A DNA stretch of 40,567 nt from Planctomycetota bacterium (GTDB lineage: Bacteria; Planctomycetota; Planctomycetia; Isosphaerales; Isosphaeraceae), in the NCBI GenBank assembly GCA_021777845.1, contig JAJYDB010000009.1, positions 1 to 40,567 of the forward strand, read 5' to 3'. Positions 6,161 through 10,357 of this stretch are shown piece after piece (positions within the stretch are counted from its first letter, which is position 1; the number at the start of each line of letters is the position of its first letter). A program made the translations under genes and the position numbers. Below the pieces are notes generated by a model, which saw nothing but the letters and a program-made list of their open reading frames with translations, ran no database searches and was not told where the DNA came from.

Positions 6161-7828
6161 ATGTCTCGATCCTCGCGGATGTTGAGAGGCGTTGGCGGAT
6201 GGGCGCTGGGCGGCGTGCTGCTCGCTCCTTGGTCGCTCGCCGCGGCCGACGACACCTCTTCGCTGACTCGGCAATTGACTGAGCTTGGGCGTCAGGCCGA
6301 GAAGCTTGGCCGTGCCGACGACGCCGGCGGTTATTACCGCAAAGCGCTCGAGCTTGATCCGTCAAATGTCGCGGCGAAGAAGGGGCTGGACGCCGCGATC
6401 AAGCGCGTCTCGATGCTCCAGGCGCCCGCCGAGGGCGACAAGTCGAAAGCCGAGAACAAAACCGACGCGAAGCCCCTCCCCGACGGCGGCCTGCAGGCAA
6501 CCATCGAAAACGCCGCGAAAATGGACGAGGTCGCTCGCCAGGAACTCACCGACAACATTCGCAAGCGGATGCAGGAGGCCCGCGAGCTGACGAACTCCGG
6601 TCAACCCGAGGCGGCGTACAACGCACTCCGGCTGGCGCAGACGGTGGTTCGAGCCGACGACAAGGCGGGCGAAGCCCTCAAGCGAGACCTCGATCGCCAA
6701 ATCCAAAACCAGATGCTCGACACCCTCCGCAAGGAGGAGTTGGTCCAGCAGAAGCGTGCCGAGGCGGAGCGACTGGAGGCGATTTCCGAGCAGAACATGC
6801 GGGCCGTTGATCAACTCGCAAACGAGCAGTACCGCGTCAATACGATGATGACGCAGTTCGACGCCTTGATGTCGCGCGGCAACTACAACATCGCCTACGC
6901 GGCGGGTATCGGCAGCGTCGACGACATCATGGACAACACGCAACCGTTCGAGGACGCACGCGACCTTGCCCAGAAGGCCGGAGCCTTGGCTCCCTACAAC
7001 ACCGCGCCCGCGGCGGGCAAGTTCGTGGCGCAGACGTCGGCGTTCTATCAGCAGCAGATCCTTTACGACCTCGCGAAGGAATATTACTACATGTTGACGA
7101 TGGAGGACGTCGACCGCGCCGCCGTCCCCTTCCCGGACAACAAAGTGATCCAGTACCCGCAGGCGGCTCGTTGGCGAGCCATCTCCGAGCTTCGCATCAA
7201 GCGTTACTCGAAGATCGACCTGCTCTATCGCGACCCGAAAACGCAGAACATCATCGAGCAACTCGAGCGACCGATCACGATGTCGTTTCCGACCGAGACA
7301 TCGCTTGAAGAAGTCCTCAAGTACGTGAAGTCGGCGACCCAAGGCCCGAACGACGCCGGCATTCAGATCTATCTCGACCCCGTCGGGCTCTCCGAGGCCG
7401 ACAAGACGCCGTCTTCGCCGGTGACGATCGACCTGGAAGGCATTCCCCTTAAAACAACCTTGCGACTGATCTTGAAGCAGCTCGGTCTGACCTACACCGT
7501 GAAGGACGGGATGATCACGATCACGTCGGAAACATCCGACGACCAGCCGACCGAGATTCGCGTCTACCCGGTGGCCGACCTTGCCTTGATTCCGATGTCG
7601 CTGATGATGGGCGGCGGCGGCGGCATGATGGGTGGCGGTATGGGCGGCGGCATGATGGGCGGCGGTATGGGTGGTATGGGCGGTGGAATGGGCGGCGGTA
7701 TGGGCGGTATGGGCGGCGGCATGGGCGGCGGCATGATGGGCGGCGGTATGGGCGGTATGATGTCGATCGGCCTCGAACCGCAGGACGCGCCCTCCCAGAG
7801 CGCCTTCACGGAAAAAAAAAGCAACTGA
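6161..7828 (+). CDS. Secreted TPR / STN-like domain protein with Gly-Met-rich tail
   Basis: This 555-residue protein begins with a signal peptide ending near PWSLAAADD and a TPR-like segment (LGRADDAGGYYRKALELDP). A long charged helical region covers about residues 100-330. A domain at about 364-455 (ERPITMSFPTETSLEEVLKY, then VTIDLEGIPLKTTLRLILKQ and LGLTYTVKDGMITITS) has the shape of the STN/secretin N-terminal fold found in outer-membrane gating proteins. The last ~75 residues are GGGM/MMGGG repeats and then a short tail. GGGAG lies at normal distance before the ATG. The stop comes six bases after a run of nine A (7812-7820), and the -1 frame continues open into the next gene, so this may be the first half of a longer protein. 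Role unknown; periplasmic location inferred. Confidence 0.8.
   Translation: MSRSSRMLRGVGGWALGGVLLAPWSLAAADDTSSLTRQLTELGRQAEKLGRADDAGGYYRKALELDPSNVAAKKGLDAAIKRVSMLQAPAEGDKSKAENKTDAKPLPDGGLQATIENAAKMDEVARQELTDNIRKRMQEARELTNSGQPEAAYNALRLAQTVVRADDKAGEALKRDLDRQIQNQMLDTLRKEELVQQKRAEAERLEAISEQNMRAVDQLANEQYRVNTMMTQFDALMSRGNYNIAYAAGIGSVDDIMDNTQPFEDARDLAQKAGALAPYNTAPAAGKFVAQTSAFYQQQILYDLAKEYYYMLTMEDVDRAAVPFPDNKVIQYPQAARWRAISELRIKRYSKIDLLYRDPKTQNIIEQLERPITMSFPTETSLEEVLKYVKSATQGPNDAGIQIYLDPVGLSEADKTPSSPVTIDLEGIPLKTTLRLILKQLGLTYTVKDGMITITSETSDDQPTEIRVYPVADLALIPMSLMMGGGGGMMGGGMGGGMMGGGMGGMGGGMGGGMGGMGGGMGGGMMGGGMGGMMSIGLEPQDAPSQSAFTEKKSN
7602..7759 (+). repeat. GGC/GGT-ATG low-complexity coding repeat
   Basis: This is an imperfect array of ATGGGCGGC / ATGATGGGCGGC units encoding alternating Met and Gly runs (for example MMGGGMGGGMMGGGMGGMGG). 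It makes up the tail of the STN/TPR protein. Such an array is prone to length change by slippage. Confidence 0.85.
7811..7820 (+). other. GA9 slippery run joining two reading frames
   Basis: In the frame of the upstream gene the run reads GAA AAA AAA AGC AAC TGA. The -1 frame reads on as AAG CAA CTG and has no stop until 9195. The sequence A AAA AAA is a known -1 slippage heptamer type, and runs of nine A are also known sites of transcriptional slippage. Either would fuse the 6161 and 7999 genes. A miscounted homopolymer in the assembly would look identical. Confidence 0.5.
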
Positions 7829-7998
7829 GTCGGGTCGGCTCTGAGAGCAAATCCGCAGCAACCAACGACCGGGACGCGCAGGGTTCGCCCACGCGTCCCG
7901 GCTCGCTTTCGAAGCCCGGCGCCTCGACGTCGAAACCCGCGCGCGACGACCGGCCGTCGATCAAGCACAAACCCGCGGGGGCCGCGGATCGCGGCATC

Positions 7999-9195
7999 AT
8001 GATTGAAGGCGCGCCGAAGGCGAGACTAAGCACCGCGCCGCATGATCCCTACGCCTATTGGATGAATTACTACAAACCCAACGCCGACAAGAAGAAGGAT
8101 CACAACGAATCACCCGACAAGGTCTACGAGACGGTCGCGCTCTTGAACCGCGCCCGCAAATACGCCGAGGTCCAAGCGGTGCTCACCGCCTATCTGACGC
8201 AGCGCAACGAAAACGCGCGAACGTGGATGTATGAGGCGCTCGCGATGGCGATCGACCTCAACAAGGGCCGGCCGTCCGACGTTCGGCAATCGCTCGGTTA
8301 TGCCGCCGACATGGCGCTGAAGAGCGGCGAACCAACCAGCATGGCGGGTGTTGCCGACGTCATGCTCGTGCACAAGTGGTACGACCGCGCCGGCGAGATG
8401 CTCGACGCGGCGTCCGCGAAGGTGCCGCATCGGGGCGAACCTTACCTCATGATGATGCAGCTTGCCTTGCAGACCCTCGACCCGAAGCGGATGGAGGTCG
8501 CCGTTGACGGCCTGCTCGCGCTCGGCTGGCCCGGGATGGACGATCAAGTCCGTGCGAACGTGCGCAAGCAGGTCGACACGTTGTGCAAGCGTCTTCGCGA
8601 AGCCCGCCGCGAAAAAGAGGCCGACGAACTGCTGGCGCGGGTCCTCGAATTTGAAGCGCGCGACGTTTACGTACGACTGACTTGGGGCGGCTACGCCGAT
8701 CTCGACCTGATTGTCGAGGATCCGCTGGGCGGCCGCGCGGAGTTCTTCAAGCCGCGGACCGTCTTCGGCGGTGCACTGATCAAGAATGGCAAGAGCCCTG
8801 ACTCCGAGGAGATTTACGTCTGCCCGCGCGGCTTCAGCGGCGACTACAAAATCCACGTCGCGAAGGTCCTCGAGGACGAGAAGAGACCCGTCCGCGCCGC
8901 CACTCTCGACGTCATCCTGCACGAGGGGACCGACCGCGAGGAAAAGAAAACCTACACCATTCGCCCGGGCGACTTCGCCAAACCGATCGTCGTTCACCTC
9001 TCCGACGGCCGACGCAACCAGGTCTTGCCCGCGACCGCCGCGTACTCTTTGAAAGATCAGATCGAGCTCACCACCCAGTATCTGCGACTCAACAACGTGT
9101 TGAAGGCCCGGGCCGAAAAACAGGGCGGGGCGAATCAAAGCCCGCCGAAACCCTCGAACACTCCGCCGCGAAAAGGCTTTCAAATCAAGCCTTGA
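7999..9195 (+). CDS. TPR-like protein with C-terminal beta domain; probable second half of the upstream protein
   Basis: The part from the first ATG has 398 residues. Early helical repeats (HDPYAYWMNYYKPNADKKKD, then AALLNRARKYAEVQ-like units up to about residue 215) are followed by a beta-rich domain starting VYVRLTWGGYADLDLIVEDP and ending at about residue 310. That domain resembles the DUF2135/YfaP style with an Asp-x-Asp motif. The ATG at 7999 has no ribosome binding site, and the frame is open upstream without any start codon back through the A9 run at 7812-7820. The intervening translation is Ser/Pro/Lys-rich, like a linker. I therefore infer that it is normally translated as a fusion with the 6161 gene, about 1,011 residues in all. 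Substrate and partner are unknown. Confidence 0.7.
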   Translation: MIEGAPKARLSTAPHDPYAYWMNYYKPNADKKKDHNESPDKVYETVALLNRARKYAEVQAVLTAYLTQRNENARTWMYEALAMAIDLNKGRPSDVRQSLGYAADMALKSGEPTSMAGVADVMLVHKWYDRAGEMLDAASAKVPHRGEPYLMMMQLALQTLDPKRMEVAVDGLLALGWPGMDDQVRANVRKQVDTLCKRLREARREKEADELLARVLEFEARDVYVRLTWGGYADLDLIVEDPLGGRAEFFKPRTVFGGALIKNGKSPDSEEIYVCPRGFSGDYKIHVAKVLEDEKRPVRAATLDVILHEGTDREEKKTYTIRPGDFAKPIVVHLSDGRRNQVLPATAAYSLKDQIELTTQYLRLNNVLKARAEKQGGANQSPPKPSNTPPRKGFQIKP

Positions 9196-9334: not shown

Positions 9335-10357
9335 ATGAAAACGATTGACTCTGCCGACACGAGGAAGCGACTCGCCGATTTTGTTTCGGAAAACGGCGAG
9401 TGGACCGCGTTCAACATCCACCTCGGCTCCGAAGTTTACCCGATCAATCCCGACCTCACCGATGAAAGATTGCGGCGTATTGTTCAGTTGCTGTCCGACC
9501 TGGCCCACAAACCTCTCGACCAACTTCGCTTCGCCGACCTTGCGTGCGCCGAGGGTCACTATGCCATCGAGGCCGCGATGCACGGTTGCGAGTCGGTCGG
9601 CATTGAAGGACGAGAACGGAACACCGCGAAGGCACGTTTCGCGCAGAATATACTCGGGCTCGAAAGATTAACCTTCGTCACTGACGATCTCCGCAATTTC
9701 AGCAAGGAGAATTACGGCGTCTTTGACGTCGTGCTGGCCGCCGGGATTCTCTACCACCTCGACCATCCCGATGTGTTTCAATTTCTCGAACGAATCGGAG
9801 ACGCCTGCGAAGACCTTTTGATTCTCGACACCTATATCAGCCTTGCATGCGCGACATCTTTTACTTACAAGGATCACACGTACCACGGCCGCTATTACAG
9901 AGAGCACCCCAAGAGTGCGACGAAGGAAGAACAGGAGCTTCAACTCTGGTCTTCGCTTGATAACCCGCGCAGCTTTTGGCTCACAAGGGCATCGCTCTAC
10001 AACTTCTTGCAAGAGGTCGGCTTCACGTCGGTCCTCGAAGTCCACTTGCCGTGGGTGACCGACTTCCGCGCCGATCGGATCACGCTTGTCGCGGTGAAGG
10101 GGAAACGGGCTCACGCCTTGTCCTCGCCGGTCAGCGACGCGCTTCCGATCAAGCCTTATCCGGAGTCGACGCCGACGTCGGTCCATCCCATCAACGACCG
10201 CCGGCGACGGATCGTCGATCTGGTTCGAGCGCTATTGCCTGGTCCACTTCGCCGAGCCTTGAAGGCGATATTGATCAAGACGGGGGTCGTAAAGCCTCCC
10301 TCGGTCGGCGTCAAGGCTCCTTGGACTTGGAAGGAACCTTGGAAGAAGCGCTATTGA
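9335..10357 (+). CDS. Class I SAM-dependent methyltransferase
   Basis: This 340-residue protein has a Rossmann-type methyltransferase core. Motif I is FADLACAEGHYAIEAAMHG (about residues 70-90), followed by an acidic residue in SVGIEGRERN for SAM ribose binding. Then come TFVTDDLRNF and VFDVVLAAGILYHLDHPDVF, the usual motifs II-IV. The C-terminal ~90 residues are basic and Pro-rich with no recognised fold. The ATG at 9335 follows AAAGGGTGG; an in-frame TTG at 9317 overlaps that site and is less likely. The substrate cannot be told from the sequence; a tRNA wobble-type or small-molecule methyltransferase are both possible. It stands alone between a plus-strand gene and a convergent minus-strand gene. 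Confidence 0.82.
   Translation: MKTIDSADTRKRLADFVSENGEWTAFNIHLGSEVYPINPDLTDERLRRIVQLLSDLAHKPLDQLRFADLACAEGHYAIEAAMHGCESVGIEGRERNTAKARFAQNILGLERLTFVTDDLRNFSKENYGVFDVVLAAGILYHLDHPDVFQFLERIGDACEDLLILDTYISLACATSFTYKDHTYHGRYYREHPKSATKEEQELQLWSSLDNPRSFWLTRASLYNFLQEVGFTSVLEVHLPWVTDFRADRITLVAVKGKRAHALSSPVSDALPIKPYPESTPTSVHPINDRRRRIVDLVRALLPGPLRRALKAILIKTGVVKPPSVGVKAPWTWKEPWKKRY

Follow-up and report, generated by a model that had tools for sequence, protein, structure and literature searches.

We propose that a single planctomycete gene yields two proteins through programmed slippage at a run of nine adenines (A9), a reading to which we assign a probability of about 0.72 in the absence of RNA-seq, reporter or proteomic data. 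The gene lies in a 40,567-nucleotide stretch of a Planctomycetota bacterium genome (assembly GCA_021777845.1, contig JAJYDB010000009.1), referred to here as the window. Nearly all members of two families share the same cassette at this gene: the A9 run, nearby stops in both other frames and, further away, a hairpin resembling a transcription terminator.

Two reading frames meet at a run of nine adenines

The upstream frame (frame 0) reads ...TTC ACG GAA AAA AAA AGC AAC TGA around the junction, so that its stop begins at the sixth base past the run; the original prediction, that the gene starting at 6161 ends just past nine adenines, was correct to the base. The features at the junction are as follows, in window coordinates.

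6161..7828, + strand: ORF1, encoding the short product of 555 aa, with a putative signal peptide, TPR, a long helical region, an STN-like domain and a Gly/Met-rich tail, ending ...EKKSN before the stop (sequence, Pfam, NCBIfam, model m51ec187ecfa6)
7602..7769, + strand: Gly/Met-rich low-complexity segment upstream of the junction (sequence; low pLDDT)
7812..7820, + strand: A9, the putative slippery run, read in frame 0 as GAA AAA AAA AGC and including A_AAA_AAA (sequence; exactly nine in 89 of 90 usable split loci)
7826..7828, + strand: frame-0 stop TGA, which terminates the short product (sequence)
7842..7844, + strand: third-frame stop TGA, 24 nt past the run, closing the frame reached by slips of +2 or -1 nt
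7869..7901, + strand: terminator-like hairpin within the -1 frame, with a 10-bp stem CCGGGACGCG (7869-7878) / CGCGTCCCGG (7892-7901) and inner GGG-TTCG-CCC (equivalents in nearly all split loci; covariation)
7902..7909, + strand: T-enriched tail after the stem, CTCGCTTT, 4 T in 8 (sequence; T enrichment across loci)
7819..9195, + strand: ORF2, in the -1 frame, with a disordered linker, TPR-like helices and a beta domain resembling DUF2135 (sequence; model md52a2750968f; PDB fold matches)

The -1 frame has no stop from A9 as far as the TGA at 9193-9195. Its first in-frame ATG, GTG or TTG past the run is the ATG at 7999, upstream of which we found no Shine–Dalgarno (SD)-like sequence; the frames thus bear out the earlier statements that the frame is open to 9195, offers no start before 7999 and has no ribosome binding site there. 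Joining the frames gives 553 + 458 = 1,011 codons, as had been anticipated. We propose that ORF2 is entered only by a slip, for which RNA or protein data are lacking.

Twenty-five A9 runs occur in the 4.85-Mb genome, and ORF1/ORF2 is the only place at which two long frames are joined in this way. One other look-alike was rejected, being intergenic and placed before an acyltransferase-like ORF (L192). A gene with a methyltransferase domain follows on the same strand (window 9335-10357). The DNA of the Gly/Met repeat (7602-7769) has near-matches of about 100-150 bases and about 72-85% identity on other contigs of the genome (C121, C57, C203 and C52 of G000), so other genes may carry tails of this type.

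The run and its frame offset are conserved across two families

A search for ORF2 in 59 related genomes gave 57 matches; across the class, 377 of 398 genomes (about 95%) had a match, essentially one copy per genome. The gene is split at the junction in two families. One is the family of the window, identified as Isosphaeraceae because its loci match Singulisphaera acidiphila, Paludisphaera soli, Aquisphaera insulae and Tautonia sociabilis; the other we take to be Planctomycetaceae. In the remaining families examined, loci cut by a contig end aside, the homologue is a single ORF of about 1,200-1,650 aa without an A run.

Exactly nine adenines, with ORF2 always in the -1 frame, were found at all 42 usable Isosphaeraceae loci and at 47 loci of the second family. 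These counts take one locus per genome, so that the 89 usable A9 loci stand for 89 genomes, with a single A10 locus kept apart; related genomes are not independent. At all 89 loci the -1 frame extends without a stop back to the run. The recurrence of the same run with the same offset is far beyond chance and, with the fused homologues of other families, it supports the programmed slippage with two products that the original prediction had offered as one possibility.

The position of the run relative to codons varies. In Isosphaeraceae it begins after one nucleotide of a codon at 40 loci and after two at 2, and in the second family at position zero at 39, after two nucleotides at 6 and after one at 2; across the 89 loci its length stays nine in all three phases. 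Lysine in Isosphaeraceae ORF2 is encoded by 855 AAG versus 328 AAA codons, and A9 is never interrupted by AAG. ORF2 residues are well conserved at the protein level, and a constraint on Lys-Lys-Lys could contribute to conservation of the run. Median distances past the run are 8 nt to the end of the frame-0 stop and 19 nt to the third-frame stop. Closure of the third frame departs from an in-gene null with a combined p of about 1e-36, a value inflated by the relatedness of the loci.

Several individual loci depart from this layout or from their records. The A10 locus (L102, identical to L178; G166) belongs to an Isosphaeraceae MAG that is 64% complete and has a single frame of 1,054 aa; its near relative (L091/L179) has A9, and the tenth adenine stems from an error in the sequence or from a recent fusion. 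In one second-family genome (L119; G278) a stand-alone ORF2 homologue sits behind an unrelated ORF with no STN gene upstream and has its own signal-peptide-like N terminus, with A9 still present in frame, a possible gene fission. Another second-family ORF2 (L118; G395) is broken by an in-frame TAG, probably through MAG error or decay of the copy. Three MAGs (L176, L178 and L179) are titled Candidatus Kuenenia stuttgartiensis; the gene groups firmly with Isosphaeraceae in each, and the record names look wrong.

A terminator-like hairpin lies downstream of the run

Folding in sliding windows across the 89 loci gave a mean z near zero along the gene except from about +40 to +130 nt past A9, where it fell to -4.1 in the interval from +60 to +130 nt. 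The hairpin responsible is found in nearly all split loci, has a median length of 14-15 bp and starts about 54 nt (Isosphaeraceae) or 68 nt (second family) after the run. Among 20 loci of common layout, 96.5% of the cells were standard pairs, compared with 24-47% in slid controls, and both sides had changed in 9 of 13 pairs; two second-family hairpins that MAFFT had misregistered were left out of the pair counts. The eight bases past the stem hold 3.25 T in Isosphaeraceae and 4.24 in the second family, against 1.21 and 1.67 past control hairpins in ORF2. At least five of the eight are T at 49% of second-family and 15% of Isosphaeraceae loci, against 0-1% of controls (none of those from the second family).

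The element thus meets the requirement of an intrinsic terminator for a GC-rich stem-loop conserved as structure, and its covarying stem and T tail resemble, on sequence evidence, the signature of such a terminator inside a reading frame. That it acts as one is an inference without RNA 3'-end data, which we put slightly short of even odds. Doubt about this role is greatest in the window itself, where the tail is weak (4 T in 8) and a strict terminator scan finds nothing at this site. The linkers of fused homologues contain no comparable hairpin; their lowest z values are scattered and reach -3.7, versus a median of -4.9 at split loci. In Rfam the sole match was below threshold, lay on the minus strand and is put down to chance.

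The evidence favours slippage of RNA polymerase

We infer that it is probably the polymerase, and not the ribosome, that slips. The RNA–DNA hybrid within RNA polymerase is 9-10 bp long (PMC5009743). Nine adenines are kept in every codon phase although the heptamer A_AAA_AAA needs only seven, a frame-blind constraint of the kind that such a hybrid predicts. The locus also has the features expected of a slippage gene: a homopolymer of the A/T type, about eight or more long, at the frame junction; conservation independent of phase; and stops close by in the non-productive frames.

The same two proteins would arise from a uniform mRNA if ribosomes underwent programmed -1 frameshifting at A_AAA_AAA, perhaps with the distant hairpin as an aid; we think this rival unlikely but possible. 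Its heptamer is contained in A9 in the right register whatever the phase, the product would be identical, and in phage T7 gene 10 a terminator far downstream can participate in -1 frameshifting (PMC5009743). It leaves unexplained, however, why the length is fixed at nine in three phases where seven suffice, and why the third frame is also closed, which ribosomal shifting does not need. The accessory signals are missing as well. An SD-like stimulator upstream of A9 was present at 5 of 89 loci, compared with 7% of control positions. The usual stimulators of -1 frameshifting lie 5-9 nt downstream (PMC5009743); at split loci we detected no significant fold 0-45 nt downstream of the run (mean z -0.73), and the only strong hairpin is about 50-70 nt away. 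An apparent folding z of -2.1 over 0-70 nt was discarded, as it fades when the A run is excluded. The fixed nine in all phases, the closure of both other frames, the absence of AAG from the run despite its prevalence in Isosphaeraceae ORF2, and the lack of an SD or of a hairpin at 5-9 nt together favour transcriptional slippage from A9 to A10.

We regard it as very improbable that translation of ORF2 begins independently past the ORF1 stop, by reinitiation or at a start of its own, as it would for a separate cistron. The in-frame ATG at 7999 and the stand-alone homologue behind a different upstream gene (L119) could be read that way, but the ATG has no SD, and six relatives (L063, L064, L066, L068, L080 and L085) have no in-frame ATG, GTG or TTG with a ribosome binding site for at least 300 nt after A9, and mostly no start at all, so a separate start is not the rule. 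The -1 frame moreover reaches the run unbroken in 89 of 89 loci, and a C-terminal module without a signal peptide would, we infer, stay in the cytoplasm. A cistron of its own calls for a start and a ribosome binding site, and this is not met; nor, given the six relatives, do we find the situation that would have overturned the original prediction, namely relatives in which the two are distinct genes, both preceded by a ribosome binding site.

Least credible of all is a phase-variable contingency locus or a homopolymer sequencing or assembly error, for although homopolymers are prone to indels and one MAG (L102/L178) has A10 with an intact fused frame, phase variation calls for length variation among relatives (we count 89 A9 and one A10), the run is constant across many genera and single-contig genomes, and error would not be expected to conserve a hairpin or stops in both other frames. 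Of the alternatives first raised for this junction, assembly error is refuted by many independent genomes, including the single-contig Singulisphaera acidiphila NC_019892.1, and phase variation finds no support; as far as genome comparison can decide, both, along with a pseudogene, are excluded as general explanations.

The two halves of the protein

ORF1 matches the Pfam families TPR_2 (E 7e-4) and STN (E 2e-4), both short of Pfam's own cut-offs. A weak, partial NCBIfam match over the STN part, to the type IV pilus outer-membrane protein Amuc_1098 (E 5.5e-7), suggests a protein of the envelope. The structure model of ORF1 is of low confidence (pTM 0.30). That of ORF2 (pLDDT 81) consists of TPR-like helices and a beta domain, which is DUF2135-like in 10 of 27 members; the PDB fold search returned generic TPR proteins only, and the PDB sequence search for ORF2 nothing useful.

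Second-family ORF1 and fused homologues, compared at loci L047, L053, L045 and L056, begin with a vWA domain that is absent from Isosphaeraceae ORF1; by this comparison Isosphaeraceae appear to have lost the domain or to have split it off. A tree of the C-terminal domain resolves each split group as a clade (support 100); the two are not sisters and fused families lie between them. The cassette, hairpin included, therefore either arose twice or was present in the common ancestor and disappeared through fusion on two or more occasions.

A proposed mechanism

We suggest that, in a fraction of transcripts, RNA polymerase realigns on the nine adenines and inserts an extra A. The 555-aa STN/TPR protein, predicted to be exported, would come from unslipped A9 mRNA, because frame 0 stops just past the run. 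A10 mRNA would be read into the -1 frame to give the protein of ~1,011 aa with its C-terminal TPR/beta module, and transcripts with other numbers of adenines would meet the third-frame stop a few codons on.

The hairpin may add a second consequence. On unslipped mRNA the ribosome would leave at the TGA ending at 7828, about 40 nt ahead of the hairpin, which, free of ribosomes, would fold; transcription would then tend to end, and the 3' end of the short mRNA would be protected. On slipped mRNA ribosomes would translate through the hairpin and the remainder of the gene would be expressed. This coupling of slippage, translation and termination is an inference that requires a ribosome lagging near RNA polymerase, which is not known for planctomycetes. 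The resulting idea of a slippage-gated intragenic attenuator, in which the frame that is read and the transcription of the gene's second half would both be governed by one switch at A9, is tentative, and we consider it somewhat likelier to fail than to hold.

Relation to known systems

Our literature search brought up neither a description of this gene nor any account of programmed frameshifting in planctomycetes; predicted frame transitions have been tallied for two planctomycete genomes, with nothing more on this group (PMC3711429).

The Citrobacter rodentium gene tssM1 undergoes transcriptional frameshifting at A11, and both of its length forms are required, in a defined ratio (PMC4256274). 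It resembles the planctomycete locus in that a poly-A run stands just ahead of a frame-0 stop, an A is added by slippage, and short and full-length proteins with an exported domain are made (PMC4256274). It differs in having A11 and not A9, in being confined to two T6SS loci and not a whole family, and in encoding an unrelated protein; the abstract and discussion of that study mention no conserved downstream hairpin (PMC4256274). By analogy with tssM1 we can only guess that most of a complex may be built from the short form, with the long form adding the C-terminal module.

In the two-ORF dnaX of Chlorobi a poly-A run likewise sits at the junction and a slip is required for the long product, and Thermus dnaX combines a poly-A run and slippage with nearby stops in the other frames (PMC3711429, PMC5009743). 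The runs of two-ORF dnaX vary between 7 and 10 A (PMC3711429, PMC5009743), whereas the planctomycete run is fixed at nine over two families; the gene is another one, and the terminator-like hairpin is additional in the planctomycete locus. Shigella mxiE, spa13, spa33 and mxiA also give two products of secretion-system genes by transcriptional slippage at homopolymers; they are not known as a class-wide conserved cassette and, in the texts consulted, no attenuator-like element is described (PMC5009743, PMC4256274).

Ribosomal frameshifting in E. coli dnaX shares an A-rich heptamer (A_AAA_AAG) and the -1 direction, but uses a 5' SD and a close 3' hairpin, neither of which the planctomycete site has. 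Transcription attenuators, as intrinsic terminators gated by translation, are similar in that the stopping point of the ribosome would determine whether a terminator-like hairpin folds; the planctomycete gate, which is only inferred, would be polymerase slippage within the gene and not a leader peptide.

Significance

To our knowledge, only a few scattered examples of bacterial cellular genes with programmed polymerase slippage have been described. If our reading is right, this locus would be among the most widely conserved, with a fixed A9 in two families and a gene present in about 95% of the class sampled, and the fused homologues of other families provide a built-in natural control. Genes of this kind are prone to annotation as two genes or as frameshifted pseudogenes. 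The terminator-like hairpin would add a possibly new coupling between slippage, translation and termination.
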